A DNA stretch of 64,000 bases from Mycobacterium kiyosense (GTDB lineage: Bacteria; Actinomycetota; Actinomycetes; Mycobacteriales; Mycobacteriaceae): contig AP025179.1 in assembly GCA_021654635.1 (NCBI GenBank), positions 4,216,001-4,280,000 on the forward strand, in the 5' to 3' direction. This document shows, in pieces, positions 1 to 17,009 of the stretch. Both the position numbers and the translations under genes were made by a program. How positions within the stretch are numbered: position 1 is the first letter of the stretch; every line of letters begins with the position of its first letter. Below the pieces are notes generated by a model. That model did no database searches and was not told where the DNA came from. It worked only from the letters and a program-made list of their open reading frames with translations.

Positions 1-198
1 AACGATGTGCACAAGGTCTTCCAGGGCATTGCGGACCTGTGGTCGGGCCAGACGCCTGAGGCCCTGCAGGCCGCCCACCAGCGGATCAACACGCAGCTGG
101 AGGACTACCTGCATGCGATTCAGGCGACCGGTGCCGCGGCCGGCAACCAGCAAGACGAAATGCAGGCACTGGACTCACAGCTGGCCGGCGGTTTCTGA
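1..198 (+). CDS. WXG100 (Esx/ESAT-6-like) protein, 3' part only
   Basis: The reading frame is open from the first base, so the gene starts before the window. The 65 visible residues hold a Trp-Ser-Gly turn (about residue 14) followed by a long amphipathic helix and a short glycine-rich tail ending in AGGF. That is the second half of a WXG100 helical hairpin, the family of small secreted partners of ESX systems, usually about 100 residues and encoded in pairs. The partner gene would lie to the left of the window. It is convergent with the espI-like gene and belongs to the adjoining ESX core by position. No C-terminal YxxxD/E signal is seen, so it could be the EsxA-type rather than the EsxB-type partner (inference). 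Confidence 0.8.
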   Translation, partial: NDVHKVFQGIADLWSGQTPEALQAAHQRINTQLEDYLHAIQATGAAAGNQQDEMQALDSQLAGGF

Positions 199-340: not shown

Positions 341-2754
341 CTACGCCTGTTCCCTCGCTCCGCGCAACCGCCCGAAATTCTCCGACACCGAACCAGCCAA
401 TTCCAGATAAGCCTGCCTGGTGGCGGGCCGCAGCCTGTCGAAATCGACGTCGGCCCCCTCAGCGAGATGCGGGTCGAACGGAATCAGATGAATTGACCGG
501 CAGCGCGTCTGGAAATGTTCGTACACCTTGTCCAGCTTGAGCGCCGCCGACCCGGGCCGCGAGGCACTCAGGACTACGTGCGCCTCCCGGACCAGACCCG
601 AATGCCCGTGCTGCATAAGCCAATCCAGTGTCGCCGAGGCGCTACGGGCGGCGTCGATGGCCGGTGAACTGACCAGCACGATGGTGTGAGCCAGGTCCAG
701 CACCGCCGACATGGCCGAGTGCATGATGCCGGTGCCGCAGTCGGTCAGGATGATGTTGTAGAAGTGCCGCAGAATATCGATGGTGCGCCGGTAGTCGTCG
801 GCGCCGAAGACCTCCGATACCGCCGGATCCTGTTCACTGGCAAGCACTTCCAGTCGGCTGGTGGCCATCAAGGTGTGGTTGCGGACGTCGGCGTAACGGT
901 TGATGTTCGGGTCGGCCAGCAGGTCACGCACCGTTGACCGGGTGGACATGTCACCGACGCGTTCCCCCAGCGTGCCGCGGTCGGGGTTGGCGTCGACGGC
1001 GATGACGCGGTCGTGCCGCACCGTCGCCAGTGCTGATCCCAATCCGAACGTGGTGGTGGTCTTGCCGACTCCGCCCTTGATCGACAGCACCGCGATGCGG
1101 AAGTCACCGACAATGGGCTGTCGGATCTCGGCGAGCAGATGCTCGTGCCGGCGTTGCTTGCGTGACGCTCCGGGGTTGAGGTGCCCCCCGGTCGCCCTGT
1201 GTACTGCGCGGCGCCAGCCCGACGGCGGGGCGAAGCGGTCCAGGTTGTCCACCTCGGCCTCGTCGATCGGGGGCGGCACCTGGAACGGTTGGTAACTCGG
1301 GGGCGGCCCCACGGGCGCTGGCGGCCCGCCCGGCGGTGCGGCCCGGCGTGCACGCACCGGTTGTCCGGCGACCGGCCGCGGCGTCGCCGGTGGCACGCGC
1401 TGCCCGGGCGGGGGCCCGGCCACCAGGGCGGCGGCGGAAACGGGCCCGGCGGGGGCGGCGGCGGGAACGGCGGGAGAGCGCCGGGCCGGCGGCGAGGGCC
1501 CGGTGTCGGGCGCCCGGACGGCGCTGACGTCGTGGGCGATTCCTGCGCAGCGGTCGCATCGTGCGCTGCCTCGTCGCGGCCCGCGGTGGCCGTCGATCCC
1601 GGCACCTGCCACGGCGGAATCACCGGCCGATGGGTGACCGACGGATCCGGGCCGTTCTCGGCGGAACTCGCGCCGGGCGGGACCCGGTGATCGGCCGGCT
1701 GGTCCTCAGCGGCCGGCTGCGGTGCCGACTCGGCACCCGGCATGAAATCGGTCCATCGCCATTCGGCCGCGGGCGCGACTACTTCCGCAGGTTCTTCGAC
1801 CGCGGGTTCTTCGACCGCGGTCGGGGAAGATTCCTCCTCCGGCGCAACGCTTTTCGGTGTCACCGGCGGGCTGACCGAGTCCGACGGCGCCCAGTCATCG
1901 GCGCTCTGCTGCGGCGCGGACTCCTGGCTCTCGACGGCGACGGGCGCTGCCTCCGGCTCCGCCGGGGCAGTCTCCTCTTGCGCCCGCTTGGCGTGCATCT
2001 GCTCGAGCAGCGCCGCCGCTCTCAACTCGATGTCGTCGAGTTCGCCCGCCGCCGAGACTGTCGGCTGCTCGGGCACCGTCGGGGTCTCGGGTTCCACCGG
2101 GGACTGCGGCTCCCATCCGGTCTGTGTCGAAACCTCAACGCGGGCATCGGTTTCCGCCCCATGATCGGTGGGCGGCACCGCGGGCGCCGCGCCCCACTCG
2201 CGTTCCGTCGAAACCTCTACCGGCGCTTCGGATTCCACCGTGGCATCGGGTTGCTCAGAAATTTCCGGTGGCGCCGTCGATACCCACCACCCGGTATCCG
2301 GTGCGGATGCGCCGGCCGGAGCCGAAATCCCCGATTCCGGTGGTGCGATGCTTTCCTCGTCGATCTCCTCACCGCCCCGGCTCGGCGGGCCGGACGAATC
2401 AGTCCGGTAATCCGGCGACGAATCATCGGCGTGCTCGTCAGCCGGCGGCACCGGACGGTCGGCAGGTCGGCGCTCGCTGTCGTGACCGGCCCGCAAAGCC
2501 ACTCGGTTTCGAGAACCCGCAGCGCCTTCGTGCTCGTCGTCGCGAACCGCCTCCGGCCCGGCCGACGACTGGACCGCTCCCGAAACGTCGTCGCCACCAC
2601 GCGCGTGACTCTCGGCGTCGTCGGCACGTTCTTGCTTCCCGCGACCCAGCGGGGTGCGCTTCCGCTGCGGGTCGCCGGTCAGCCAGGGAGGATGCGCCAG
2701 CGATCCGCGTTCGTCCCCAGGCGTTTGCTTGGGCGTTTGCTTCGGCACCGTCAT
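341..2754 (-). CDS. espI: EspI-like MinD/ParA-type ATPase, frameshifted
   Basis: The N-terminal about 430 residues are acidic and proline-rich, ending in a poly-proline stretch. The C-terminal about 270 residues are a MinD/ParA-like domain with a deviant Walker A motif (KGGVGKTTT) and an RVIAVDANPDRG motif. This architecture is that of EspI (Rv3876) and its ESX-2 counterpart, cytosolic ATPases of ESX loci. The two halves are in different frames: the N-terminal frame reads PPPPWWPGPR and the other continues GPPPGQRVPP. Adding one base to the G5 run at 1410-1414 joins them, and the total length (2414) is one short of a multiple of three. Start: ATG at 2754 just after a G-rich ribosome site. It follows mycP by 141 bases on the same strand, so it is probably the last gene of the eccC-eccD-mycP operon. 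If the shift is real, the ATPase part would be lost. Confidence 0.75.
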
Positions 2755-2895
2755 CCCCCCTTTCGATCGCAAATCGGTCGGCACGCCGTCTTCAATCCTA
2801 CGTACGGGGACACGGATAATTTGCAGTACGACAGTCGCACACATTCGACACGGCACACGAACGGCAATTCCGCCGGAAGCCAGGGGTGCGGCGCC

Positions 2896-4305
2896 TTACT
2901 CCAGCAGGTCCGTGGCCTCGGATTGCACCGCTGCCGAAGCGCGGCGGCGCCGGGCCAGCGAAACCGCGCCCGCCACTCCCGCCAGCGCAACCGCGCCCAC
3001 TGTGACCGACAACACGATGATCTGCGCGCGCTGGCTGGCCGGGTCGCGACGCGGCCGGCCGGCAATCGGCGTCGCCTGGTCCGGATTAGGCAGCTGGTTC
3101 GCCGCTGGAAGTCGATAGGTCAGCGCCGCGACCGGGTCGACCACCCCGTATCCGGTGGCCTCGTTCGGCCCCGCGCCCGGCGTGTGGGCGGTGCGCTTGA
3201 CCAGCTCGATCACCTGGCCGGCGGTCAACTCGGGAAACCTGGACCGGATCAACGCCACCACGCCGGAGACGAACGGCGCCGCGAAACTCGTGCCGTTGAT
3301 CGGCGCCAACCCTTGCTGGCTGAGCACGGCGTTGATCAGACCCGGGCCGTTGGAGTCCAGCGACGTGATCCGTTCACCGGGCGCGGCTACGCCGACCCAG
3401 GGTCCGCGCAGGCTGAAATCCGCGGGCTCGCCGGAGGTGGTCAGCGCGCCGACGGTCAGCACGTAGTCGCTGAACCAGGCGGGGCTGGCGATGGTCCGCA
3501 CCGAATCCCAACCGCTGCGCAGTGGCATATTCGGGTCTGGCATCGCGTTCTGCGTCTTGCACAGGCCCTGGTTGTTGAAGTTGCCCGCCGCGGCCACCAC
3601 CACCACGTTGCGTTCGAACGCGTAGCGCACCGCGCGGCCCAACTGGGCGTCGTCGAGTCCGGCGCCGACCGGGCTGCAGGCCACCTCGGACAGGTTGATG
3701 ACGGTGGCGCCCAGATCGACCGCGCGGGTGATCGCGTAAGCCAGCGTCAGGGTGTTGCCGTATCCCGGCGAGGTGGCATTGGGATCGTTGGTCTGCGCGG
3801 AACCACCTTCCCTGACCGCGTAGACCGCGCTGTTCTGCCGGATCGACAAGATCGTCGCGTCGGGCGCCACCCCGAAGAAGCGGTCGGCCGGGCTGGGTTG
3901 CGCGGCGATGATCCCCGCCACCAGCGTGCCGTGGGCGTCGCAGTCCTGCAGACCGTCGGTGCTGGACACATAGTCGCCGCCGCCCTGCAACGCGGGCAGC
4001 CGTGGATGCCGGTTGACGCCGGTGTCGATCACCGCGACCTTCTGCCCGGCACCGCGCGAGAGCCGCCACGCGTCGGTGAAGTTCAGCATCGCCTCGGCGC
4101 TGGTCTGCACGGTGAAGTCGGTCTGCGGCAGTACCCCGGTGGGAACGCCGCAGATCGCCTTCAGATCGGTCGGCTCCGGCGGACCGACCGGCCCACTGGG
4201 CGGCGGACCCGGTTCCACCACCGGCGGTCTAATCGCCAGCGCGGGAGCGGCATCCACCGCACCGGTCACCAGTAAGACGGACAGAACCGCGACCAGGCGC
4301 CGCAT
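2896..4305 (-). CDS. mycP: Mycosin, subtilisin-like membrane protease of ESX
   Basis: The 469-residue product has a signal peptide (about 1-24), a subtilase domain with the catalytic Asp94 (VIDTG), His125 (HGTLVAG) and Ser340 (GTSFAAP), and a C-terminal transmembrane helix (about 432-455) with an Arg-rich cytosolic tail. This is the usual layout and length of mycosins, which sit in the periplasm, associate with the ESX core complex and are needed for its stability and for substrate processing. The ATG at 4305 shares one base with the eccD stop codon (TGATG), so translation is likely coupled. All three catalytic residues are present, so it should be active. It is the third gene of an eccC-eccD-mycP run, an order seen in several ESX loci. 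Confidence 0.93.
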   Translation of the reverse strand: MRRLVAVLSVLLVTGAVDAAPALAIRPPVVEPGPPPSGPVGPPEPTDLKAICGVPTGVLPQTDFTVQTSAEAMLNFTDAWRLSRGAGQKVAVIDTGVNRHPRLPALQGGGDYVSSTDGLQDCDAHGTLVAGIIAAQPSPADRFFGVAPDATILSIRQNSAVYAVREGGSAQTNDPNATSPGYGNTLTLAYAITRAVDLGATVINLSEVACSPVGAGLDDAQLGRAVRYAFERNVVVVAAAGNFNNQGLCKTQNAMPDPNMPLRSGWDSVRTIASPAWFSDYVLTVGALTTSGEPADFSLRGPWVGVAAPGERITSLDSNGPGLINAVLSQQGLAPINGTSFAAPFVSGVVALIRSRFPELTAGQVIELVKRTAHTPGAGPNEATGYGVVDPVAALTYRLPAANQLPNPDQATPIAGRPRRDPASQRAQIIVLSVTVGAVALAGVAGAVSLARRRRASAAVQSEATDLLE

Positions 4306-5780
4306 CAGAATCCCAGCCGCTGGTAGATGCCCACCACCCACAGCGCTAGCGGTATCAGCGACCCGACAGCCAGGTAATCCAGATACGCGAGCAAAGTCGC
4401 CGTTCGCGAAGGCGACCCGTCGCCGGCATCGACCAACCCGGCCGCCGCGGCGCCGAGCGCCACGACCAGCAGCACGCCGAGCGCCACCTGCGGCATCGGT
4501 CGCATCCCGTCCTGCGCCGTCACGCAGGTAAACACCATGATCGTGACAGCCGGCACCTCCAACGCGGCGCGCTCCAACCAGCTGCCGAAGACTCTGCTGT
4601 GCAAGGCCAGCACCGTCGCGGCCGTCAACGCGAACGCGAACGTGGGCCAGTCCAGCGGCACACCGCTGCGCAACAGCAGTGCCAGCAGCACCGTCGCAGC
4701 GCCCGCCGCGCCGGCCAGCAGTGCAGCGCGGGTCACCGCCGCCGACTTGGCCCTGGTCCACACCTCCTCGGCGGTCGGCATGGTCACGCCCGGACCACCA
4801 TCTGCGGCCGGAGCGGACGGCTCGAACGGATTCTCGAAATCCCAGTCCTCGCGCCGGGTTTCGACAGCGACGGACGGGGTCTCGAATCGACCCCACCTCG
4901 CCGTCAGCCGGCGCACCGCCAGGCAGATCAAGAGCGTGGTCACCGCCGCGGTCACGTACACGATGTCGGCGCGGCCATGCAGCGCCCGGGCCGGCATCAC
5001 CAGACCGACCAGACCGAACAACACAGCGTTGGCCAAAAACGCCCCGTGCCCGGTGCCGATCACCCGGTCATACACGACGCAGAGCAGCAGCACCGCCGCG
5101 CAGGCGCCGGCCAAGCCGTAATAGCCGTACCGCCCCCCCACCGCGAAGGCGACACCGGCGGTGACCGGGATCGCCGCCCAGCCCAGCGCCGCCGCGACGT
5201 CGCTCAGCCGATAGGACCGGTGCGCCATGGCGGCCCCGCCCACCAGGGCCAGCACCACGGCCACCGCCAGGGCGACGATCACGAGGTGGTGCGCCGCGGC
5301 AATCCTGCCGACGACGCAATAGGTGATGGCCAACGCGGCGAGATGAACTCCGGCGAACGCCATCCAGCGTGCAGACCCGGCATCCCAGGCGGCGTAGGCC
5401 ACCTTGTTCAGCCGACCGACGGCGTCCACCACGTCGTCGTAGAGGGTGGGCGGCGACAGTGCCCGTTGCGACGCGAGGCGCAGCAGTTCACCACCACCCA
5501 CACCGGCCTGGCGCAGCGTCTGTTCCGGCTTCAACGCGACGCCGCCGTCGACTCGGCTGAGCACCCAGAAGTTGCGCCGCTGGTCCCTGGCGGCCTCGTC
5601 GTCGCGGTCGAAATCCCGGGACCGGACCAGCCGGGCCAGGTCGGGAACGATGTTCGAAATCGGAATGTCCAGTGGCAACGCGATATCCAGCTGGGTGTTC
5701 CCGCCCAACACCGACACCCGGATGTGCTCCGGTGCGGCCGACACCACCCGGAGCTGGCTGAGCTCGCTGATGCCGGTCAC
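4305..5780 (-). CDS. eccD: EccD membrane channel component (copy b)
   Basis: The 491-residue protein has a ubiquitin-like N-terminal domain (about residues 15-95, beginning with a beta strand IRVSVLGG), a cytosolic linker, then about eleven hydrophobic helices. A long polar loop in the middle (about residues 285-340) carries an acidic NPFEPS segment. EccD proteins dimerise in each ESX protomer and are thought to line the membrane chamber. The GTG start at 5780 overlaps the eccC stop (GTGA), and mycP follows with a one-base overlap, so the three genes form a tight operon. A second full-length eccD lies at 9911-11407 on the other strand. This copy has the usual mycP neighbour, but its middle loop is unlike that of copy a. 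Confidence 0.9.
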   Translation of the reverse strand: MTGISELSQLRVVSAAPEHIRVSVLGGNTQLDIALPLDIPISNIVPDLARLVRSRDFDRDDEAARDQRRNFWVLSRVDGGVALKPEQTLRQAGVGGGELLRLASQRALSPPTLYDDVVDAVGRLNKVAYAAWDAGSARWMAFAGVHLAALAITYCVVGRIAAAHHLVIVALAVAVVLALVGGAAMAHRSYRLSDVAAALGWAAIPVTAGVAFAVGGRYGYYGLAGACAAVLLLCVVYDRVIGTGHGAFLANAVLFGLVGLVMPARALHGRADIVYVTAAVTTLLICLAVRRLTARWGRFETPSVAVETRREDWDFENPFEPSAPAADGGPGVTMPTAEEVWTRAKSAAVTRAALLAGAAGAATVLLALLLRSGVPLDWPTFAFALTAATVLALHSRVFGSWLERAALEVPAVTIMVFTCVTAQDGMRPMPQVALGVLLVVALGAAAAGLVDAGDGSPSRTATLLAYLDYLAVGSLIPLALWVVGIYQRLGF

Positions 5781-8700
5781 AGGTCCGGCATCCTGGACAG
5801 CTGGATCACGCCGCTCTTTGTGGTCCGCGAAACCAACATGCCTCGGCCCGGGGGCATTTCGGTGGCTTTGTAGCCGAACAGTGCACCTTCGTCCTTGGTG
5901 CCGCTCATCACCAAACCGTTGCACGACAGATCCTTGAGCCGTCCCAGGAACTGGTCCAGCATGGCGCGCCCGGCACCGCCGATCCGGCGGGTGACGACGA
6001 CCCGCAGGCCGATGTCACGGGCCTGGGGCAGAAATTCGATCAGCGGAGTCAACGGGCTGCTCAGCGATCCGGTGGCGACCAGGTCGTAGTCGTCGATCAT
6101 CACGAAGATGTCCGGACCCGACCACCAGGACCTTTCCTTGAGCTGCTGCTGGGTGATGTCGCTGGGCGGCAACCGGCCCTTCAGGGTGGTGGCCAGCGCT
6201 GTCATCAGCTCGGTACACGACTGCGACGCCGTGGCATAGCCCGCCAGGTACTCGTTGTCCACCACACCGAGCATCGAACGACGGTAGTCGACCAGGATGA
6301 TCTTGCACTGATCGGCCGTTGCGTTCTCCATCAACCCGGTGGCGACGTTACGCAGCAGGCTGGTCTTGCCGCACTCCGTGTCACCCAGCGCCACAAAATG
6401 CGGCTGCGCATCGAAATCGATTATCACGGGTGCTAATTCGGATTCGTTGATCCCCACGGCAACGCGGGATGGGCCCAGCATCCCGGCCGTGCGGGCCGCG
6501 CGGACCACGGCCTTGCGATCCAGATTGTGCGGCAGCATCCGCACCCGGGGCGCCTGCCGTTTGCCGTAGTGCGCGCGCATCGCGCTGACCGCGCCGGCAA
6601 CACCCTCCGGCAGATCCTCGACGCCGGAACTGGAATCCAGCCGCGGCAGTGCGATCAGGATGTGCAACCGTTCGCTGTTGATACCCCGGCCCGGGCGGCC
6701 GACCGGCACCAATTCGTTGTATCGGCGGCCCACGTCGCTGTCCAGCGCGTCGCCCAGCTTCAGTTCGATGCGGGTACCCAACATGTCCTTGACGGCCGCA
6801 CGCATCTCCATCCAACGCGTCGCGGAGACCACCAGGTGCACCCCGTATGAAAGCCCTTGCACCGCAAGCGAAGTCAGAACAGGCTCGAGCATTTCAAAGT
6901 CGCTGCGGATCGAGGCCCAGCCGTCGACCACGAGGAAAAGGTCGCCGAACTTGTCCTGGCTCAACGGATCCTGCGCGGCCACCTCCGGCGCCAGCGTCGC
7001 CAGGCGGGCCTTGCGGGCGCGGAAGTCCCGCATCGACTCGATGCCCAGCTCGCGGAACCGCATCTCGCGGGCGCGCAGCACTCCCGACACCTCGGCGACG
7101 GTGCGACGGATACCGTCGGCATCCATCCGGCCGGCAACCCCGCCCACATGCGGCAGGTTGGCCAGGCTGGCCAGCGTCCCGCCGCCGAAGTCCAGGCAGA
7201 AGAACTGCACCTGCTCGGGAGTGTGCGTGGCCGCCGCCGACATGATCAGCGTGCGCAGCGCCGTCGACTTGCCCGACTGTGGGCCGCCGACCACCGCGAC
7301 ATTGCCCTGGGCGCCACTCAAATCGACCATCAACACGTCGCGGCGCTGATCGTATGGTCGGTCCACCACTCCCATGGGCAGCCACAGCCGGCCGTCGAGA
7401 TTCTCCGGCGCGGCCCAATTGCTGTCCGGCAGAAGTTGATTGACCGCCGGGCTCTCGTCCAGCGGCGGCAGCCACACCTCGTGCGCCGGGCGTCCGTGGC
7501 CCCGCAGCCGGGACACCACGACGTCGAGCAGTGTCGTCTTGGCCGGACCGGCAGGCACGCTGATCTGCGGCTCGTCCACTTCGACCGGGGCGGCGCGCTC
7601 GGAGGCCACGGTTTCCTTTTTCACCGGCGTGGCGGTGAAAAGCTTGGGCGCCAACGCGCCCAGCTGCCGGCCCCTGCTGCCCTGAGCGGCCCGGCGGGGC
7701 CGGACGTATTCGCCCGACACGTAGCACGTGTTGAACCGAATCGGTTCGGAGGCATCACATTTCAGAAACGCCGAGCCTGGCACACTGGGCAGGTGATAGG
7801 CGTCCGGGACACCGAGCACGCTGCGCGACTCACCGGCCGAGAACGTCTTGAGCCCGATCCGGTAGGACAGATGCGAGTCCAGGCCGCGTAGTTTTCCTTC
7901 TTCCAGGCGTTGCGACGCCAGCAGCAGGTGTACGTGCAGCGACCGGCCCAGTCGGCCGATCATCACGAAGAGCTCCGCGAAATCCGGTTTCTGCGAGAGC
8001 AATTCGGAGAATTCGTCGACGATGATGAACAACGCCGGCAGCGGGTCCAGCTCGGCGCCGTTGGCGCGGGCGCGTTCGTATTCGTTGACGTTGGGGAAGT
8101 TGCCCGCCGCGCGCAACAGTTCCTGGCGGCGGTTCAGCTCACCGGCCAGCGCATCGCGCATCCGGTCGACCAGGATGAGCTCGTCCTCCAGGTTGGTGAT
8201 GATCGCCGCGATATGCGGCACCCCCTCGAGCCCGAGAAACGTTGCGCCACCTTTGAAGTCGACCAGCACCATGTTCAACACATCGGGCGAGTGCGAGGTG
8301 ATCATCGACAACACCAGCGTGCGCAGGAACTCCGACTTGCCCGACCCGGTGGCGCCGATGCACAGGCCATGCGGGCCCATGCCGGACTCGGCGGACTCCT
8401 TGATGTCCAGCTCCAGCGGTTGGCCGTTGGGGGTGTAGCCGATCGGCACCCGCAACCGCTCGCGGGGCGAGCGTTTCCGCCACACCTGCTCGGGGACGAT
8501 CTCGGCTGCGTCGGGGATCTTCAGCAGCGTCATCAAACCCGGGTCGGTGGCGCGCGAATCGGCCTCCAGGTTGACGATGTGCGCGGCGCTGGCCAACCGG
8601 TAGCGGCCGATGCGGCGGGCCGTCGCCTCCGCCTCGGCGATGGTGATCGCGTCGGGCGTCGCGAACCGCTCGACCCCGACCGCGGTGCGGGCACCGACGT

Positions 8701-9817
8701 GCTCGCCTTCGGCGTCGGCTTCCAGCACCAGCGCCAGCCCGCGCCGGCTCGCCGCGGTGTCGGAGCCGTTGAGGTCCAGCAACACGACACTGTCCAATCC
8801 GGCGTCGGTGACCAGACGTTCGGTTCCGGTGACGTAGCCGTCGTCGACGACCACCACCAGCTGCTTGAGCCCCTTGGTGGGTTCCGCGTTGCGGGTGAAC
8901 CGGCCCCGCTCGCCCAGGTCGGCGGCCAGCGACCGCTCGAGCAGATCGAGGCTGGGAAACAGCATGCGCATCGGACCCAGGCCGTCGCGGGCCGTGGCGT
9001 GCTGCGCGTGCGGCAACCACTTGACCCAGCTCCAGTTCTCGCCGTCGGGGTTTGCCGTCACCACCGCCACCTGTACCTGGTCCGGGCCGTGGAACGTGCA
9101 CAACTCCAGCACCATGGACCGCACCAACTGCCGCGCCAGCTTGCGGTCGCCTTCGAAACTGATGGCGGGGAAAGCGCGCAGGGACACCGCGGTGGGCAGG
9201 GCGTGTACCACCGAATGCGTTTTGACGAACCGACGCAACGCCACCGTCGAGACCGGCTCGAGGTCCTCCGGTGGGCCGGTCTCGGGTGCCAGCAGCCGGG
9301 TCGCCAGCCGGTGGGTGCCGATGCCCACCCGCACGTGGCACCAGTCGTTGTCGGTGGTTCGACGTTCCCACATCCGCCGGCTGCCCACCACGTCACCCAG
9401 GGCGCGCGGGTCGGGGTGACTCCACTCCAGCGCCGTGCGCTGACCCTCGCCGGTTTCCTCGGCGTCGTCACGCAGGTTCGCCAGGTAACTGAAGTAGTCC
9501 TTGCGTTCCTCGTTGAGTTCCGCGGCCGCCTTGCCGGAACGTCCGCCGCCGCCCATGAACATGCCGGCCATCGACATGATCATCATCATCGGGAAGATCA
9601 GGAACATCGGATTGCGCGCCAGATCCCGGCCGCCGACCGTCACCATCAGCGCGATCATCCCGACGACGGCGACGATCATCACGAACGGCAGCAGCTTCAC
9701 CACCAGGTTGCCGGGAACCACCCGCGGCACTTCCGGCGGCGGCTGCAAGTTGACTTCACCACCGGGCATGCGCGGCGGCGACGCCCGCTGCCGGCGCACG
9801 AAACCCTGCGTACTCAA
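5777..9817 (-). CDS. eccC: EccC, FtsK/SpoIIIE-type ESX motor ATPase (undivided)
   Basis: At 1346 residues this is a one-piece EccC; in ESX-1 the gene is split into eccCa and eccCb. Two transmembrane helices (about 37-60 and 72-90) precede three ATPase domains with P-loops GATGSGKSEF (near residue 490), GGPQSGKSTAL (near 845) and GDTECGKTSLL (near 1145). EccC recognises secretion signals of Esx/PE-type substrates and drives export at the inner membrane. The start is a TTG at 9817 behind a GGGGAAAAGG ribosome site; no better upstream start is visible. It opens the minus-strand operon eccC-eccD-mycP-espI and is divergent from the second eccD, a head-to-head eccC/eccD arrangement also known from ESX-4. 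Confidence 0.95.
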   Translation of the reverse strand: MSTQGFVRRQRASPPRMPGGEVNLQPPPEVPRVVPGNLVVKLLPFVMIVAVVGMIALMVTVGGRDLARNPMFLIFPMMMIMSMAGMFMGGGGRSGKAAAELNEERKDYFSYLANLRDDAEETGEGQRTALEWSHPDPRALGDVVGSRRMWERRTTDNDWCHVRVGIGTHRLATRLLAPETGPPEDLEPVSTVALRRFVKTHSVVHALPTAVSLRAFPAISFEGDRKLARQLVRSMVLELCTFHGPDQVQVAVVTANPDGENWSWVKWLPHAQHATARDGLGPMRMLFPSLDLLERSLAADLGERGRFTRNAEPTKGLKQLVVVVDDGYVTGTERLVTDAGLDSVVLLDLNGSDTAASRRGLALVLEADAEGEHVGARTAVGVERFATPDAITIAEAEATARRIGRYRLASAAHIVNLEADSRATDPGLMTLLKIPDAAEIVPEQVWRKRSPRERLRVPIGYTPNGQPLELDIKESAESGMGPHGLCIGATGSGKSEFLRTLVLSMITSHSPDVLNMVLVDFKGGATFLGLEGVPHIAAIITNLEDELILVDRMRDALAGELNRRQELLRAAGNFPNVNEYERARANGAELDPLPALFIIVDEFSELLSQKPDFAELFVMIGRLGRSLHVHLLLASQRLEEGKLRGLDSHLSYRIGLKTFSAGESRSVLGVPDAYHLPSVPGSAFLKCDASEPIRFNTCYVSGEYVRPRRAAQGSRGRQLGALAPKLFTATPVKKETVASERAAPVEVDEPQISVPAGPAKTTLLDVVVSRLRGHGRPAHEVWLPPLDESPAVNQLLPDSNWAAPENLDGRLWLPMGVVDRPYDQRRDVLMVDLSGAQGNVAVVGGPQSGKSTALRTLIMSAAATHTPEQVQFFCLDFGGGTLASLANLPHVGGVAGRMDADGIRRTVAEVSGVLRAREMRFRELGIESMRDFRARKARLATLAPEVAAQDPLSQDKFGDLFLVVDGWASIRSDFEMLEPVLTSLAVQGLSYGVHLVVSATRWMEMRAAVKDMLGTRIELKLGDALDSDVGRRYNELVPVGRPGRGINSERLHILIALPRLDSSSGVEDLPEGVAGAVSAMRAHYGKRQAPRVRMLPHNLDRKAVVRAARTAGMLGPSRVAVGINESELAPVIIDFDAQPHFVALGDTECGKTSLLRNVATGLMENATADQCKIILVDYRRSMLGVVDNEYLAGYATASQSCTELMTALATTLKGRLPPSDITQQQLKERSWWSGPDIFVMIDDYDLVATGSLSSPLTPLIEFLPQARDIGLRVVVTRRIGGAGRAMLDQFLGRLKDLSCNGLVMSGTKDEGALFGYKATEMPPGRGMLVSRTTKSGVIQLSRMPDL

Positions 9818-9910
9818 AAGGCCTTTTCCCCGAAACTCGCGACAGATTCTCCACCCGCCCCTGGGTAATGTGACCAGCGAAATGCCACAACACGCAGGAG
9901 GCCGACAGCG
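9818..9910. promoter_or_regulatory. Divergent promoter region between eccC and eccD-a
   Basis: These 93 bases must hold the promoters of both the eccC operon and eccD-a. The region includes the eccC ribosome site on the minus strand and an AGGAGG site nine bases before the eccD-a ATG. I cannot identify -10/-35 boxes with confidence. Confidence 0.45.
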
Positions 9911-11407
9911 ATGACTCTACCGCCGTCGCTGTCGGAATTAGACGCCGAATCCGAGGCCGAACCCACCCTCAGCCGCGTCACTTTGGTGGTCGGTGACCTG
10001 CGGCTGGACTTCGGGCTACCGGCCGACACCAGCATCGGTGCGTTCATCGACGACGTCATCGACATCGCCAACGAGCAGATCGCCGCACACCCCGGCCCGG
10101 ACGCCGAACTCGAACAGGTCGTCTTCGACACCACGGAGGGCAAGTGGACGCTGGCCCGGCTCGGTGACGATGCGATCGACCCGAGCCGTTCACTGCGCGA
10201 GGCCGGCATTTACGACGGCGAGTTGCTGACCATTCGGGAAATCGACCAGCCGGCCCGGCCGATGTTGTTCGACGACGTGCTGGACACCGACGGGCAGCCG
10301 GACAGCTCGATACTCGGCATGGGTGCCCGCCACGCGCGACTGATCACCAGCTTCGGTGTGGGCCTGACCGCTTCGGTGACCATCGCTTTCCTGCTGCCGC
10401 GGCACGCCACCGTGATCTACCTTCCCGCTACTGCGCTGGGTATCGGATGCCTGGCGGTACTCCTCGCCTGCGTCGTCGCTCACCGCTGCGGCGGTGCGCG
10501 ACGCTCGGAGTGGCTCGCGGCGGTCGCCACGCCGCTGTTGTTCGGCGGCGCCCTGTACGTGGTGCCCGACGGCTGGGGAGCCAAATCGCTGCCGATGGCG
10601 TTCGCGCTGACCGGACTGGCGTCGCTGCTGGTGTTGCTGGTCACCGGCCGCGGCCGGGCGCTGCACACCGCGGTGATCGCGTTGGCGGTGATCGGTGGCG
10701 CCGCCGCGGTGGCCGGGCTGCTGTGGAGTCCGCCGCCGCGCGCCACCGGCGCGGTGCTGGCCACGGTGTCGGTGATCGTCGTGTACCTGTCACCACGGGT
10801 GACGATCCTGCTGGCGAAACTGCCCGTCCCGCGGGTGCCCACGGCCGGCGAGCCGCTCGACGACATCGAAACGCAGGGCGGGACGACCGTCGAGGGGGTC
10901 AACGCCGTCGGCAAACAGGTGATCCCGACCGAGGAAGGCATGATCGTGCGGGTGCGGCGGGCAAGTCAGTACCTGACCGGCATCCTGACCGCCACCGCCG
11001 TCACCGCAACGGTCGGCTGTTACCTGGCGGTCGACGTCAGCGACGGATTTTATTGGCAGGGAACGGTTTTCGCGACCGCGGTGGCGACCGTGCTGTGCCT
11101 GCGCGGACGCAGCCACCACGATCTGCGCCAGTCGGCGACGCTGATCGCAGCGGGTTTGACGATCGCGCTGTTGACCATCGTCAAAACTGCTGTCGGCCTG
11201 GACAATTGGGAGTTCAACGGCACCGCGGCGCTGGTGGTGCTGATGGTGTTGGTGGTCGCCTGCGGCATCATCGCCCCCCGGTTGGAGTTCTCGCCGGTGC
11301 TGCGGCGGCAGGTGGAGCTCCTGGAATACCTGGCGATCGTGCTGATCTTCCCGCTGTGCTGCTGGATGGTGCGTCTGTACGCGATGTTCCGCGAGCTCCG
11401 GATCTGA
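9911..11407 (+). CDS. eccD: EccD membrane channel component (copy a)
   Basis: The 498-residue protein has a ubiquitin-like domain (about residues 20-105, starting SRVTLVVGDLRLDFGLPAD) and then about eleven hydrophobic helices. A polar cytosolic loop (about 295-350) carries the VRRASQ segment typical of the family. It is full length with intact frame, so it is not a remnant. The ATG at 9911 has a strong AGGAGG site. It is divergent from eccC and convergent with eccB (three bases between stops). Together with 4305-5780 this gives two different EccD proteins in one locus; the two differ clearly in sequence, so it is not a recent duplication. Function in the family: dimeric membrane core of the ESX translocon. 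Confidence 0.92.
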   Translation: MTLPPSLSELDAESEAEPTLSRVTLVVGDLRLDFGLPADTSIGAFIDDVIDIANEQIAAHPGPDAELEQVVFDTTEGKWTLARLGDDAIDPSRSLREAGIYDGELLTIREIDQPARPMLFDDVLDTDGQPDSSILGMGARHARLITSFGVGLTASVTIAFLLPRHATVIYLPATALGIGCLAVLLACVVAHRCGGARRSEWLAAVATPLLFGGALYVVPDGWGAKSLPMAFALTGLASLLVLLVTGRGRALHTAVIALAVIGGAAAVAGLLWSPPPRATGAVLATVSVIVVYLSPRVTILLAKLPVPRVPTAGEPLDDIETQGGTTVEGVNAVGKQVIPTEEGMIVRVRRASQYLTGILTATAVTATVGCYLAVDVSDGFYWQGTVFATAVATVLCLRGRSHHDLRQSATLIAAGLTIALLTIVKTAVGLDNWEFNGTAALVVLMVLVVACGIIAPRLEFSPVLRRQVELLEYLAIVLIFPLCCWMVRLYAMFRELRI

Positions 11408-11410
11408 CGG

Positions 11411-12916
11411 CTAGGACCTGGGCTGCTCGACCTTGGAGCCACGCGGGTCGGCGGCCATCCCGTCGTGCGCGACCAGCGCCGCTTCCTGGGACAGTTCCGG
11501 TCCGGCCGGCAACAACGACACGACCGGCCACGGAGCCAGTTGCGGCACCTCGCTGTCGTCTCCCGGCTTGCGCACGCCGGTGACACCCAGCGCCGCGGCG
11601 GTGGGCAGATCCTTGATGTGATAGCGCACGCCGGCGTCGGAGATGTAGAAGAGCTGCCCCTTGGCCCGGCTGTCCGGCTCCGCCCCGGTGGCTTGCACGT
11701 ACTCGCCGGTGCCGGGTTTGAGGTACACCGAGTCGACGCCGGGCCCGTTGCCGTCGGCGGTGGCCAGACCGACCGGCTGCGCCCCGTCCGGAATCGGCAG
11801 CCGGTGCCCGACCAGCACCCGCACCGTGGCCTGCGCGGCGGAGTTCGCCCGTTCCCAGGCCATGCACACCACCCGGTCCGGCTCCACGGGCACCACCTGC
11901 GGCGACACTTTCGGGTAGTGATCCACCGGCAGGGTGTGCGCAATCGGGATGTGACTGACCACCGCCGGCGACACCTCGTGGGTCGCCTGGGACACGACAT
12001 CGTTGGGATTGCTGTACCGGATGATGTCGGCCGCCGCCGCGGACACCGGTTGCAAACCATTGGGCAGTACGACGTAGAGCTGCTCGCCGCGCGAATCGAC
12101 GGTCTTGACGATCGATCCGACCGGATAGCTGGCAGGCACGCCGGGTACGACACTGCCGGCCCCCTCGATGACCACCGGGCGGATCGGCGGGACCAGCGGG
12201 AAAGTGTTGAGTAGTGAGGCCGAGATGGGCCGCGTCGGCTCGTTCTGCAGATGCAGGGCGTTGACGACGACGGTGTCGCCGGGGTCGATCAGCGCGCGGA
12301 CGCCATCGAAGATCAGGTAGACCGAGTCGCCGGCCCGGACCAGCAGCATCTGCGCCGGCGCCGCCGCGCCGATGTCGTCGCCCAAAGTGAGGTCGCCCGC
12401 GACGACCGTGGTCAGCACGCTGGCCGTCCCGATGCTTCTCGACACGTCGGGGGTGGTGACGGTGTCACACACCGTCCAATGCGAGCTGCGCATGTCGGCG
12501 CCACCGTGAATGGCGTTGGGCGCGCCGATGATCCCCACCATCGGCCCGCGCGGCACTTGATTGAGCCACTTGTCGCTGACCGATTTGGGGAGATCGGGCT
12601 TGCCGGTGATCATCCGGGCCGACGCCAGGTTCAGGACGGGATGCAGGCGCTCGCCGATGCGCACGTAGAGGCCGCCGCCGTTGCTGAGCAAAATCTGGGC
12701 ATTACCGATGTTCGGCGACGGTTTGAAGAAGGCCAGCACCCCGGCCGCCCCGGTGATGAGGATCGCGATCACCAAACCCACCAGCAACGACCGCATCTGC
12801 CCGCGCATGGGGTCGTGAATCATCCGCGAGTCGGCCCGGATCAGCGCGTGCTCGAGCCGGCGGATCAGGAACCGATAGCCGTTGACTTGCGCGCGCGTCG
12901 TGACTTGCGCGGGCAT
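11411..12916 (-). CDS. eccB: EccB, periplasmic ESX core component
   Basis: The 501-residue product starts with a basic cytosolic segment (QVNGYRFLIRRLEHALIRAD), one transmembrane helix (about 44-64) and a large periplasmic domain with the repeated EccB folds and two widely spaced cysteines (WTVCDTV and VVCMAWE) that form a disulphide in relatives. The FKPSP segment after the helix and the LYVRIGERLHPVLNLASAR block are family hallmarks. Parts of the C-terminal half (LATADGNGP, VYLKPG) look closest to EccB of ESX-4, as far as reading by eye allows. EccB links protomers of the ESX hexamer in the periplasm. The ATG at 12916 is divergent from eccE with a 111-base gap. Confidence 0.93.
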   Translation of the reverse strand: MPAQVTTRAQVNGYRFLIRRLEHALIRADSRMIHDPMRGQMRSLLVGLVIAILITGAAGVLAFFKPSPNIGNAQILLSNGGGLYVRIGERLHPVLNLASARMITGKPDLPKSVSDKWLNQVPRGPMVGIIGAPNAIHGGADMRSSHWTVCDTVTTPDVSRSIGTASVLTTVVAGDLTLGDDIGAAAPAQMLLVRAGDSVYLIFDGVRALIDPGDTVVVNALHLQNEPTRPISASLLNTFPLVPPIRPVVIEGAGSVVPGVPASYPVGSIVKTVDSRGEQLYVVLPNGLQPVSAAAADIIRYSNPNDVVSQATHEVSPAVVSHIPIAHTLPVDHYPKVSPQVVPVEPDRVVCMAWERANSAAQATVRVLVGHRLPIPDGAQPVGLATADGNGPGVDSVYLKPGTGEYVQATGAEPDSRAKGQLFYISDAGVRYHIKDLPTAAALGVTGVRKPGDDSEVPQLAPWPVVSLLPAGPELSQEAALVAHDGMAADPRGSKVEQPRS

Positions 12917-13027: not shown

Positions 13028-14740
13028 GTGCCGCGTCGTGCAGCAACGTCCCGGGAGCGGGGCGCGCCTTCTGACCCCCCCCCGAGTTGCGCTCGACGAT
13101 CGACATCGGGGCGCAGCGCGTATTGCCGCTGCCCGATCTGCTGGTGCTGCAATTACTGGTGGCCGCGGGGACGGTCACAGCGCCGCTGCTCGGGTTCCCG
13201 GGATGGCAGGGCAGCGCGGTCGGCTTTGGCGGCCGCTCTGATTCTGGTCGTGCGGGTTCGCGGCATGACTCTGCCCAGGTTGGTCGCGCTGCGGACGGGT
13301 TTTCGGCGGCAACGCCGCAAGAGGGCCAAGAAGCGGACCCTGGCCGAACCTTTCGACGTCCCGACGGCCGATGGCGCCCTGATCGGCTTCCGTTGGGACG
13401 GAAGCACTCTGATGTCGTTGTTGAAGATCGAAGAGAACCCGCAGGCGATGACCATCATGGAGCCGGGGACGACGGTTTCCGGAGAAACCGTGCCGGTGCA
13501 GGCGTTGGTGGAATGCCTGCAGCAGTTCGACATCACCCTGGACTCCATCGACGTGATCAGCCAGGGCGCCCGGTCGCAGGGCCACAGCCAGGTGGCCGCG
13601 GTGTACGACGCCGTGCTGGGGCCGCTGCCGGCGATCGCCCAGCGCAATGTATGGATCGCCGTCCGGTTCGACCCGTCGCGCTGCGCGGCGGCGGTACGCC
13701 GGCGCGGCGGCGGCCGCGACGGCATCCTGCGGGCCGCCACGACTGCGACTCGCCGGGTGGCCAACCGGCTGACCGAGGGCGGGCTGCGCACCCGGGTGCT
13801 GACCGCCGGGGAGATCGGCCAGGCCACCCACCAGCTCACCGACGGGGTGGATCTGGCCACCGTCGAGGAGACCTGGCGGACCTGCCGGGAAGGCAGGTTC
13901 AGGTTGCGCAGCTTCGCCGTCGCACCGCGCATGCTGACCACGGCCGGACTCGGGCTGTTGTGGACCATCCCCAGCTACTCGACCACCATGAGCCTGTCGT
14001 TGCGGCGCGACCACCCGCGCGGCCCCGTCGCGATCCGGGGCCTGGCCCGCTTCGACACCCACGGCCGGTCGCGGGTCAACCTGCGCGGCCTGACCCATCT
14101 GCGGGGACATCAGTATTCGGCGCTGGCCGCCAGTCTGCCGGTGCCGGCCCCGGCCCGGCCGATCGAAAAGTGGGCCTACTCGACCGCGGATCCGATCGGG
14201 GATTTCGCGTCGCTACGCGTTCCCGCCTCGGGCTGCGGGCAGGTGATCGGCGCCGACGAGCATGGTCGCGCGGTGGCGCTGGCCCTGTTCGGCCCGCAGA
14301 TCCGGCGCGTCGAAATCGCCGGCACGCTGCACCTGGCCCAGCAGGTGGTGCTGCGGTCGCTGGCGTTGGGGGCGCACGTGCTGGTACACACCCGTCGGCC
14401 GGCCAAGTGGCGCACCATGGTCGACGAGGTCGACGACCACGACCTGCTGTGGGTCGCCGACTTCAATCGAGGCTCGATGCAGGCCGGCGCGGACCGGAAC
14501 TATTCGGTGGAGATGTTCGACGGGGTGGCCGAGCAGGCGGTGCGGGTGGGAGTGACCGCGATCGTGGTGATACCGCCGGAGTCGGCGGTCACGGCAAACG
14601 CCGACGTGGCCCTGGAACTGCTGGACTTCGCCAGCGACACGGTCAGGGTGAGCACGCGGGCGGGGTCGTCGGTGGTCACCATGGTCGCGACCGACGAGGA
14701 GATGCGCTACCTCAAGGCCTCGTTCGCCGACGAAGAGTGA
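13028..14740 (+). CDS. eccE: EccE, ESX core component, with compensating frameshifts near the 5' end
   Basis: From about residue 65 the product is a typical EccE: a hydrophobic helix (SALAAALILVVRV), a basic stretch, then a large C-terminal domain rich in Arg and Val that ends at 14740. EccE caps the outside of each ESX protomer and is present in most ESX types but missing from the ESX-4 of M. tuberculosis. In the frame of the GTG at 13028, residues about 20-60 look wrong (many Arg and Cys). Bases 13087-13215 read in another frame give a proper first membrane helix (LPDLLVLQLLVAAGTVTAPL). One indel near the C9 run at 13075-13083 and a second near 13205-13235 would restore a two-helix N terminus. 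A TTG at 13087 is an alternative start that needs only the second shift. The last 510 residues are intact. Confidence 0.82.
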   Translation: MPRRAATSRERGAPSDPPPSCARRSTSGRSAYCRCPICWCCNYWWPRGRSQRRCSGSRDGRAARSALAAALILVVRVRGMTLPRLVALRTGFRRQRRKRAKKRTLAEPFDVPTADGALIGFRWDGSTLMSLLKIEENPQAMTIMEPGTTVSGETVPVQALVECLQQFDITLDSIDVISQGARSQGHSQVAAVYDAVLGPLPAIAQRNVWIAVRFDPSRCAAAVRRRGGGRDGILRAATTATRRVANRLTEGGLRTRVLTAGEIGQATHQLTDGVDLATVEETWRTCREGRFRLRSFAVAPRMLTTAGLGLLWTIPSYSTTMSLSLRRDHPRGPVAIRGLARFDTHGRSRVNLRGLTHLRGHQYSALAASLPVPAPARPIEKWAYSTADPIGDFASLRVPASGCGQVIGADEHGRAVALALFGPQIRRVEIAGTLHLAQQVVLRSLALGAHVLVHTRRPAKWRTMVDEVDDHDLLWVADFNRGSMQAGADRNYSVEMFDGVAEQAVRVGVTAIVVIPPESAVTANADVALELLDFASDTVRVSTRAGSSVVTMVATDEEMRYLKASFADEE

Positions 14741-15599: not shown

Positions 15600-16754
15600 T
15601 CAGCTGATCGACAGCTGTCCGATCAGGGTGCTCAGCGCCGCGGCGACATCGTTGGGGATGGGCCGTTCCGCCTCCGCGTCGGCCAGGAACGATGCGGGCA
15701 GGCCCGCAGCGGCAGCCGCCTCCTCGATGCTGAGTTCCGCGCGGTGCCGCGCCCCGTACAGCCGTTGACCCAACGTCGCGTGCGGTGATCGCGCAGCCCG
15801 CGCCATCACGTCGTTGTACGCGCGTCGCACGCTGCTCAGCGCCAACACCACCGCCGGTGTGCCCTTGGCGTTACGCGCGGCGCTGGCGGCCACGTTCTCG
15901 AGTTTGCGCAGATCAGCGAGGATGCTGGTGACCCGCGGGGTGAAATCCGGATGGGTCGGTTCCGGCAGCAGCCTGGTGGCCGCGTTGATGCTGTGCATGG
16001 CCAGTTCGACGGCCTCGGCCATCAGCGGGGCGCGCACGGTGTCGGTGAGCACCTCGGTGGTGTCGTCCCCGACCGCCGGAGCGGGAGCGCCCGGTAGTGA
16101 CGCTTCACCGCTGCGAATCCGCGTGATCGTGCCGGGCGACCATTGCAGCGCCTTTTCCAGTTTGGCCAGGGTGGCGCGGCGCGGCCAGCTGCGCCCCTTC
16201 TCGAAGGCGATGAGGGTACCGGCGTTGATGACTTTGTCCTTGGCCAGACCTCGCTGAGTGATCTCGAGTTCGGCACGCCGGGCAGCAACCGCGCGGCCGG
16301 CGCGTGCGACGCCCGGGTCGCTGTCGGCCCCCCACCATTCGTCGTCCTCGTCACCCTCGGGCAGTTCGATCACGCCGGTCGCTTCGGTCGAGGGGTCGAC
16401 CTGCGCGCCCGGGTCACCCGGTGCGCCGGCCACGCTCGGCGTCAGCGAGACCGGGATGCCTTCGGGTGCGCCCAGGTGCAAGGTGGTGGGCCCGGTGATC
16501 AGCACCGAGCTGCGCCGCACGCCGTCGAGATACATGCCGTTGGTGCTGGTGTCGATCGCTTGCCAGGCGTCCTGGCCCGGCTCGAGACGCACGTGTGACC
16601 GGGAAATGCGCTCATCGGCCAGATGTACTGCCGCGGCGCTGTCCCGGCCGATCACCGCGACTCCGGCGTGCGGATCCAGGGTATGCACTTGATCGCCGAG
16701 TCGCACCGCGATGGCGGGCGTGGCCACCGCGCGACCCGCGTGATCAACGGTCAC
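15600..16754 (-). CDS. FHA-domain protein with two HTH (XRE-type) domains
   Basis: The 384-residue product starts with a forkhead-associated domain (about 14-105) holding the conserved GR (36-37), SRSH (51-54) and STNG (70-73) phosphothreonine-binding residues. An acidic linker leads to an XRE-type helix-turn-helix (about 155-215, with TLIAFEKGRSWPRRATLAKL). The last about 60 residues look like a second, weaker HTH (LSIEEAAAAAGLPASFLADA). Such a protein could read Ser/Thr-kinase signals and bind DNA; this is inferred from domains. The GTG at 16754 was chosen because a GGGGGAG site precedes it and the sequence farther upstream looks non-coding; an ATG at 16952 is the longer option. It is divergent from the whiB6-like gene, so it is a candidate regulator of it. 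Confidence 0.72.
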   Translation of the reverse strand: MTVDHAGRAVATPAIAVRLGDQVHTLDPHAGVAVIGRDSAAAVHLADERISRSHVRLEPGQDAWQAIDTSTNGMYLDGVRRSSVLITGPTTLHLGAPEGIPVSLTPSVAGAPGDPGAQVDPSTEATGVIELPEGDEDDEWWGADSDPGVARAGRAVAARRAELEITQRGLAKDKVINAGTLIAFEKGRSWPRRATLAKLEKALQWSPGTITRIRSGEASLPGAPAPAVGDDTTEVLTDTVRAPLMAEAVELAMHSINAATRLLPEPTHPDFTPRVTSILADLRKLENVAASAARNAKGTPAVVLALSSVRRAYNDVMARAARSPHATLGQRLYGARHRAELSIEEAAAAAGLPASFLADAEAERPIPNDVAAALSTLIGQLSIS

Positions 16755-17009
16755 CGCGTCACTCCCCCGGTCACTTCCGCACGCGTCGGCTCCGAATGGT
16801 TGAGCATCCTTGCTACAGCCTTTCTCAAGCACTGCGGTTACTGATGCTACATGTTTCCTGGCACATATCTCCGCGTCAGATGTCACGGATTCGCAGCACC
16901 CAGCGTTCCCACTGGCGGAGCGGTTGCCGCCGACACGCCGCTGATCAGGCATTTCATCGTGCTCCCCTAACGGCGCTTGTACGTTTTCGTAGACCGCTTC
17001 GATTTAGTT

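Follow-up and report, generated by a model that had tools for sequence, protein, structure and literature searches.

A 64,000-nucleotide stretch of the Mycobacterium kiyosense genome (assembly GCA_021654635.1, contig AP025179.1, positions 4,216,001 to 4,280,000 of the forward strand), here called the window and numbered from its first nucleotide, contains an ESX locus of the published ESX-4-bis type with two different eccD genes, which we name eccDa (4305-5780, minus strand, 491 aa) and eccDb (9911-11407, plus strand, 498 aa). We consider it probable that their products form an obligate heterodimer, two old specialised paralogues per protomer, with EccDa in the outer and EccDb in the inner of the two EccD seats. 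Two genes would then encode the EccD pair of each ESX-4-bis protomer, and the EccD ring of 22 helices would always contain one EccDa and one EccDb. The linker that joins the head to the first transmembrane segment (TM1) would, in the outer ("bent") seat, pack against EccB and the stalk of EccC. The TM6-7 loop of the inner ("extended") seat would run along EccC and against the linker of the other copy, and EccB would be held there by the TM10-11 loop and TM11. EccDa is predicted to serve only as the outer subunit and EccDb only as the inner one. It is also fairly likely, if slightly less so, that in such an obligate heterodimer the seats are divided between the genes in a way that makes the linker of EccDa and the TM6-7 loop of EccDb the two sides of a single heterotypic contact that involves EccC and EccB.

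Indirect support for the heterodimer comes from the co-occurrence of the two genes, from their descent in two old and similarly branching clades, and from the complementary conservation of the two proteins. From these patterns we infer that the pair assembles as a heterodimer, which copy takes which seat, and that neither copy is functional by itself.

An eccC flanked by two intact eccD genes

The first-pass annotation of this DNA described two intact, divergent eccD genes on opposite strands around a single eccC, each with a ubiquitin-like head and about eleven helices. Coordinates, lengths, strands and domain content all hold. Both proteins pass the curated cut-off of 94.95 bits of the EccD model TIGR03920 (EccDa 168.7 bits, EccDb 273.4 bits), both match PF08817 and PF19053, both combine a YukD/ubiquitin-like head with an EccD membrane domain, and hydropathy averaged over each family predicts 11 membrane segments per protein. 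The eccC between them (5777-9817, minus strand, 1346 aa) is fused, full-length and present once in the locus. The eccDb gene is divergent from eccC, and the start of eccDa overlaps the stop of eccC by 4 bases in 27 of the 28 loci sampled first (described below). Directly after eccDa follows mycP, which encodes a mycosin (2896-4305, minus strand, 469 aa) and overlaps eccDa by 1 base in the window. The core is completed by eccB (11411-12916, minus strand) and eccE (13028-14740, plus strand).

EccD seats in solved ESX complexes

The seat features used here are those described in the parts of the structural papers on which we drew. In ESX-3, the linker of the bent EccD (residues 100-127) is a helix touching EccB and EccC, while that of the extended EccD is a shorter helix that passes EccE (PMC6986878), and residues of the bent linker fit a pocket that the extended EccD forms with its TM6-7 loop (PMC11370616). 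The inner EccD of ESX-5 grips an EccB helix with TM6 and TM11 and receives the N-terminus of the neighbouring EccB at TM8, TM10 and TM11; one of its loops, from residues 307-315, runs along the stalk/domain of unknown function (DUF) of EccC. The outer EccD props the EccB N-terminus with a short linker helix (PMC8131196, PMC8232910). MycP is bound by the inner EccD (PMC8131196), the copy called extended in PMC11370616. The equation of outer with bent and of inner with extended was combined here from the ESX-3 and ESX-5 papers.

Complementary conservation of linker and loops

Conservation was counted in 140 aligned EccD sequences, and each stretch was ranked as a percentile of its own family's windows. 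The EccD1, EccD3, EccD4 and EccD5 sets were labelled from match length and score, with one member each confirmed by sequence for EccD3, EccD5 and EccD1. One sequence first labelled EccD5 (L177) grouped with EccD1 and was removed before the counts, and another labelled EccD1 (own_L003) fell outside the EccD1 set in the 112-row tree described below and was kept in them.

The linker of EccDa (LYDDVVDA..RLN..W; residues 105-132, 5385-5468, minus strand) is the most conserved stretch of that protein, at a mean of 3.63 bits versus 2.66 for the whole protein (100th percentile). Its TM6-7 loop (residues 299-330, 4791-4886, minus strand) is degenerate, and the TM6-7, RGRS and TM10-11 loops of EccDa rank at the 5th, 45th and 10th percentile. 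EccDb shows the complementary pattern. Its linker (residues 111-136, 10241-10318, plus strand) is poorly conserved after a DD motif and ranks at the 5th percentile, while 3 loops on the same strand are well conserved: the strongly conserved TM6-7 loop (KLPVPRVPTAGEPLDDIETQGG...; residues 293-346, 10787-10948; 96th percentile), the RGRS loop after TM8, which is largely lost in EccDa (residues 396-411, 11096-11143; 95th percentile), and the TM10-11 loop (FSPVxRR..E..EY; residues 453-473, 11267-11329; 87th percentile), whose equivalent in the inner EccD of ESX-5 receives the N-terminus of EccB from the adjacent protomer. The EccD1, EccD3 and EccD5 families and the single EccD of other genera lie above their own median in the linker and in all three loops.

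An unguided scan with 15-column windows recovered the same regions. The top difference in favour of EccDa was at its residues 117-131, in the linker, and the three top differences in favour of EccDb were at its residues 305-319 and 324-338, in the TM6-7 loop, and 454-468, in the TM10-11 loop. The contrast over the preset regions was matched by 1 of 499 circular shifts, a rank rather than a strict probability since neighbouring shifts are not independent.

A second measure started from positions that are conserved in 80% or more of 17 single EccD and counted how many of them each family retains. Across the three inner-seat loops, EccDb retains 25 of 31 such positions and EccDa 4 of 31. For the TM6-7 loop, with 17 positions, the counts are 1 in EccDa, 12 in EccDb, 7 each in EccD1 and EccD3, and 5 each in EccD4 and EccD5, the last four families also being more distant from the single EccD on which the measure is built. 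Within EccDa, retention differs between loops and linker (Fisher p 0.0013), and an apparent loss of the inner-seat loops in EccDa is well supported. As a mark of homodimers we took a single family that lies above its own median in both the linker and the inner loops, a criterion set here. EccD1, EccD3, EccD5 and the single EccD show this combination, neither EccDa nor EccDb does, and EccD4 falls short in the linker and the RGRS loop.

According to the first-pass annotation, a copy that had lost residues contacting EccC or its own dimer partner would speak against a heterodimer. Such losses were found in part, as EccDa is degenerate in the loop that runs along EccC in the inner seat and EccDb has a poorly conserved linker, the stretch that touches EccC in the outer seat. 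We read this complementary degeneration as a probable division of seats rather than as a refutation.

Co-occurrence of EccDa and EccDb

The pair was expected to recur in other genomes, and it does. Among 396 genomes sampled from the genus, EccDb was found in 63 (profile, E<=1e-90) and EccDa in 62 (profile, E<=1e-60), all of them among the 63; the remaining EccDb genome (G657) has an EccDa fragment that runs off the end of a contig. None of the 396 genomes had EccDa alone or EccDb without any EccDa. The annotation had also asked whether a copy might be absent from related strains. This is true of the whole locus, which is missing from 333 of the 396, and a single copy was never seen missing alone. 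This survey scored three candidates per genome, which makes absence less certain than presence.

A smaller sample of 198 genomes from the genus had an EccDa match in 27, and all 27 loci have EccDa and EccDb flanking eccC. A Mycobacterium arabiense plasmid, which has both copies on one side of eccC, brings these first-sampled loci to 28, and both eccD frames are open over their full length in 28 of 28, the shortest EccDa being those of L066 (450 aa) and L067 (463 aa). In one locus (L065), eccC lies in two overlapping frames. Searching named records with the EccDa profile gave 75 loci, of which 45 are mycobacterial, all with both copies around eccC and partly overlapping with the sampled assemblies; the rest are 3 Gordonia loci with EccDa, 26 single-EccD loci from Gordonia and Williamsia, and 1 with EccC only. 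EccDa is in two pieces in L200 (M. talmoniae), and L220 (M. houstonense) has a short EccDa and an EccDb in two pieces, which reflects either assembly error or decay.

The pair persists in three gene orders, namely the common one, the plasmid-type order eccC-eccDa-mycP-ParA-eccDb (L037, L256), and that of Gordonia, where 15-19 kb separate the two eccD in two genomes. One genome (G638) has two double-EccD loci, L256 and L257, one in the common order and one of plasmid type, on contigs of more than 2.7 Mb each. In a family-wide search with the EccDa profile, covering 301 genomes from 31 genera, the matches listed with more than 300 bits came from 5 genomes of the genus and two Gordonia, and the next reached at most 263 bits.

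Two of the 3 Gordonia loci with EccDa have eccC, eccDb, eccB and eccE on the same contig. A reading of the Gordonia loci L098/L099 as an orphan eccDa-mycP unit without eccC was dropped because whole-genome searches located eccC, eccDb, eccB and eccE on the same contig, with the two eccD 15-19 kb apart. The two Gordonia genomes lacking EccDa that were checked each have a single EccC and a single EccD above the cut-off. Beside eccDa-mycP, two Gordonia species encode a large WXG100_2-domain protein and Imm49 (L098, 10800-16364; L216, from G. polyisoprenivorans, 2577-9923), with one Imm49 gene in the former and three in the latter, as in polymorphic toxin loci. In a third Gordonia (L218), EccA and a MinD/ParA-like gene lie beside the unit.

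Phylogeny, selection and origin

Two trees were built. The 112-row tree draws on every second one of the EccD3 and EccD4 sequences fetched and on part of the EccD1 and EccD5 sets. The 83-row tree, made with a quick method, was limited in size and long branches by leaving out a further 10 EccDa/EccDb rows and 2 EccD4 rows, together with every EccD1, EccD3 and EccD5 row. Grouping of one copy with an unrelated locus, which the first-pass annotation had named as a possible refutation, is seen in neither tree. In the 83-row tree, EccDa with its Gordonia members forms one clade with support of 100 in the Shimodaira-Hasegawa-like approximate likelihood ratio test (SH-aLRT), and 80 without Gordonia; for EccDb the values are 100 and 96. 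The subclades of the two largely mirror each other, as judged by eye, and a few rows differ, for example L057. EccDa and EccDb are two old clades with similar branching. The ratio of nonsynonymous to synonymous substitution rates (dN/dS), computed for 8 locus pairs, is 0.16-0.36 for EccDa and 0.09-0.22 for EccDb, and both copies are under purifying selection, which is looser on EccDa.

As to which copy is ancestral, the place of the gene in the locus and its slower rate of change point to EccDb, and the tree does not settle the question: the joining of EccDa and EccDb in one clade is not rejected by the approximately unbiased test (p-AU 0.11) in a chosen set of 31 rows. The comparison set of single-EccD loci consists of 17 loci from 15 genomes and, by their codes, 10 genera, with one eccD in each fetched stretch. 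The genes eccC and eccD are divergent and followed by mycP in 12 of these 17, and eccB and eccE come after eccD-mycP in 5. EccDb, divergent from eccC and facing eccB, occupies the position that eccD has in these loci. This arrangement points to the insertion of an eccD-mycP unit behind eccC and to loss of the old mycP.

Predicted structures

AlphaFold2 monomer models were obtained for EccDa (42 sequences; mean predicted local distance difference test score, pLDDT, 82) and EccDb (37 sequences; mean pLDDT 78). The EccDa model has a linker helix at residues 114-128 and the EccDb model has none at 111-133, which agrees, at low local confidence, with the bent and extended linkers of the solved complexes.

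Arguments against a heterodimer and alternative arrangements

Several results weigh against an obligate heterodimer with divided seats. The seat features were taken from ESX-3 and ESX-5, whose EccD are about 20% identical to those studied here. The predicted linker regions of both copies have low block pLDDT (33-58), and Foldseek did not separate the ESX-3 conformers: by E-value EccDa prefers 6umm_B and EccDb prefers 6umm_C, and by template modelling score (TM-score) both models prefer 6umm_B over 6umm_C. The distances of EccDa and EccDb correlate at 0.94, no more strongly than with EccB or EccC. Some genomes have partial matches only, to EccDa in G151 (an open frame of 450 aa), G505, G513 and G577, and to EccDb in G505.

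The conservation data contain further points of this kind. When gaps count against conservation, the inner loops of EccD3 (z -0.02) and EccD5 (z 0.06) come out only average. Linker retention is similar in the two copies, with 7 of 10 positions in EccDa and 6 in EccDb (5 in EccD1, 4 in EccD3, 3 in EccD4 and 3 in EccD5), and loops and linker do not differ significantly in retention within EccDb (Fisher p 0.22). Because of these two results, the argument for a weakened linker in EccDb depends on how much this stretch varies within the family. Mean TM6-7 retention in EccDa, at 0.25, is close to the 0.28 of EccD5, and the retention figures of EccD5 and EccD4 slightly lower our confidence in the heterodimer. 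The linker of the single EccD4 ranks at only the 4th percentile, with its loops at the 60th, 41st and 54th and a loop z of -0.44; with this example of a lone EccD whose linker varies so much, poor conservation is no proof that a seat was lost.

EccD4 (L138-L157) also has a shorter TM6-7 loop, with a consensus that lacks LPxPxVP. Given this loop and the poorly conserved linker, the contacts that hold the ESX-4 ring together may differ from those in ESX-3 and ESX-5.

The main rival to the heterodimer is that EccDb forms the ring alone as a homodimer, with EccDa as an accessory EccD-like protein outside the core, for example an assembly or regulatory factor linked to MycP. We regard this as rather unlikely, and what keeps it alive is the linker of EccD4, which appears to be the sole EccD of its system. 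The faster evolution of EccDa would fit an accessory role, as would its place directly upstream of mycP, which is kept in Gordonia where eccDa-mycP lies apart from eccC, and the EccDb linker still has 6 of the 10 positions that are conserved in single relatives. An accessory factor sits less well with the finding that every sampled genome with EccDb also has at least part of EccDa, with the overlap of the eccDa start and the eccC stop in nearly all first-sampled loci, and with the linker, which contacts EccC and EccB in known structures, being the best conserved stretch of EccDa.

Quite improbable in our estimation is a pair of alternative homodimeric machines, EccDa2 and EccDb2, that share one EccC and serve different substrates or conditions. 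The opposite strands and divergent starts (9817 for eccC and 9911 for eccDb) would permit separate regulation, and the locus has two WXG100-like genes and a PE/PPE pair. Against such machines, each copy is poorly conserved, in a complementary manner, in a stretch that a homodimer needs once per protomer, and a genome with a single copy was not seen among the 396 sampled. The suggestion of the first-pass annotation that the two copies might serve two substrate sets found no support. A recent redundant duplication, an assembly artefact or a decaying copy is almost certainly not the explanation, for the split or shortened copies of L200 and L220 and the partial matches in a few genomes stand against two deep clades that both include Gordonia, purifying selection on both copies, and full-length frames in all first-sampled loci; at the window locus a recent duplicate or artefact is refuted by the trees and dN/dS.

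Other genes of the locus and the genome

The window begins with the 3' part of a WXG100-like gene (1-198, plus strand) whose start lies before the window (L038, 17905-18198). A MinD/ParA-like gene of the locus follows at 341-1612 (minus strand). The stretch of about 1.3 kb between it and mycP (1613-2895) contains no assignable gene, and a long open reading frame within it has no match to a Pfam family. To the left of the window are two WXG100-like genes, of which one is the gene that extends into the window and one falls slightly under the Pfam cut-off, together with genes for EspG, PPE, PE, a YbaB-like protein, EccA and a second MinD/ParA-like protein. Beyond eccE, an FHA-HTH protein (15600-16952, minus strand) resembles the ESX-1 regulator EspM, with 402.8 bits, below the equivalog cut-off of 550 bits, and is a possible regulator of the locus.

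Further EccD genes occur elsewhere in the genome, and two of them match EccD5 and EccD3 of the solved complexes. One further eccD (G000:C1:6302097-6303549; L006, L008, L009) extends across three reading frames, which is either a broken gene or a sequencing error.

Relation to known ESX systems

The first-pass annotation knew of no description of such an arrangement. In the parts of PMC7478629 drawn on here, ESX-4-bis loci with two eccD are reported for ICEMyc226 and M. mageritense, so that the presence of two eccD in one locus was already known. A description of the EccD pair as fixed and specialised was not found in the ESX literature consulted. The name also occurs as "ESX-4-bis/EVOL" (PMC8767326), and a related ESX-4EVOL group was described by Newton-Foot et al. 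(PMC4791881); the portions of the ESX papers that we drew on contain no account of the role of the second eccD copy. Likewise, we found no mention of two different EccD in one complex in the parts consulted of the ESX literature, which included PMC11217815, PMC12803027, PMC9505556 and PMC8262963. A sequence search found no solved structure of an ESX-4-bis system.

If the proposal is correct, it has a consequence for experiments. In ESX-3 and ESX-5 the EccD copies are identical, and one mutation hits both seats; in the sections of PMC11370616 that we used, an EccD3 mutational scan inferred from mutation patterns which EccD copy matters. Because ESX-4-bis would encode the seats separately, each could be deleted or tagged alone, and the seats would become separable by genetics. 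It could then be tested which seat binds EccC, EccB, EccE or MycP and whether the asymmetry of the ring is needed for secretion, and the pair would supply a naturally occurring division of seat-specific residues to help interpret structures.

Compared with the published ESX-4-bis loci, the locus of the strain that hosts ICEMyc226 (CBMA 226, L205) has the same gene order as the window, and L057 has one copy in the EccDa clade and one in the EccDb clade. The two descriptions differ in the place of eccA, which lies about 17 kb downstream in PMC7478629 and about 8 kb past mycP in this genome; the material drawn from that paper gives the gene order, and neither two conserved families nor roles for the copies are proposed in it. 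The nearest EccD relatives outside the pair are those of single-EccD loci in Gordonia, Williamsia and other genera of the family. The best fold matches of both EccDa and EccDb are the EccD of ESX-5 and ESX-3, and as far as described in the parts of PMC6986878, PMC8131196 and PMC8232910 used here (PDB 6umm and 7np7), the protomer of those cores has two EccD with one EccB, EccC and EccE. In ESX-3 and ESX-5 one gene product fills both EccD seats, whereas in the ESX-4-bis locus there are two gene products with complementary conservation.

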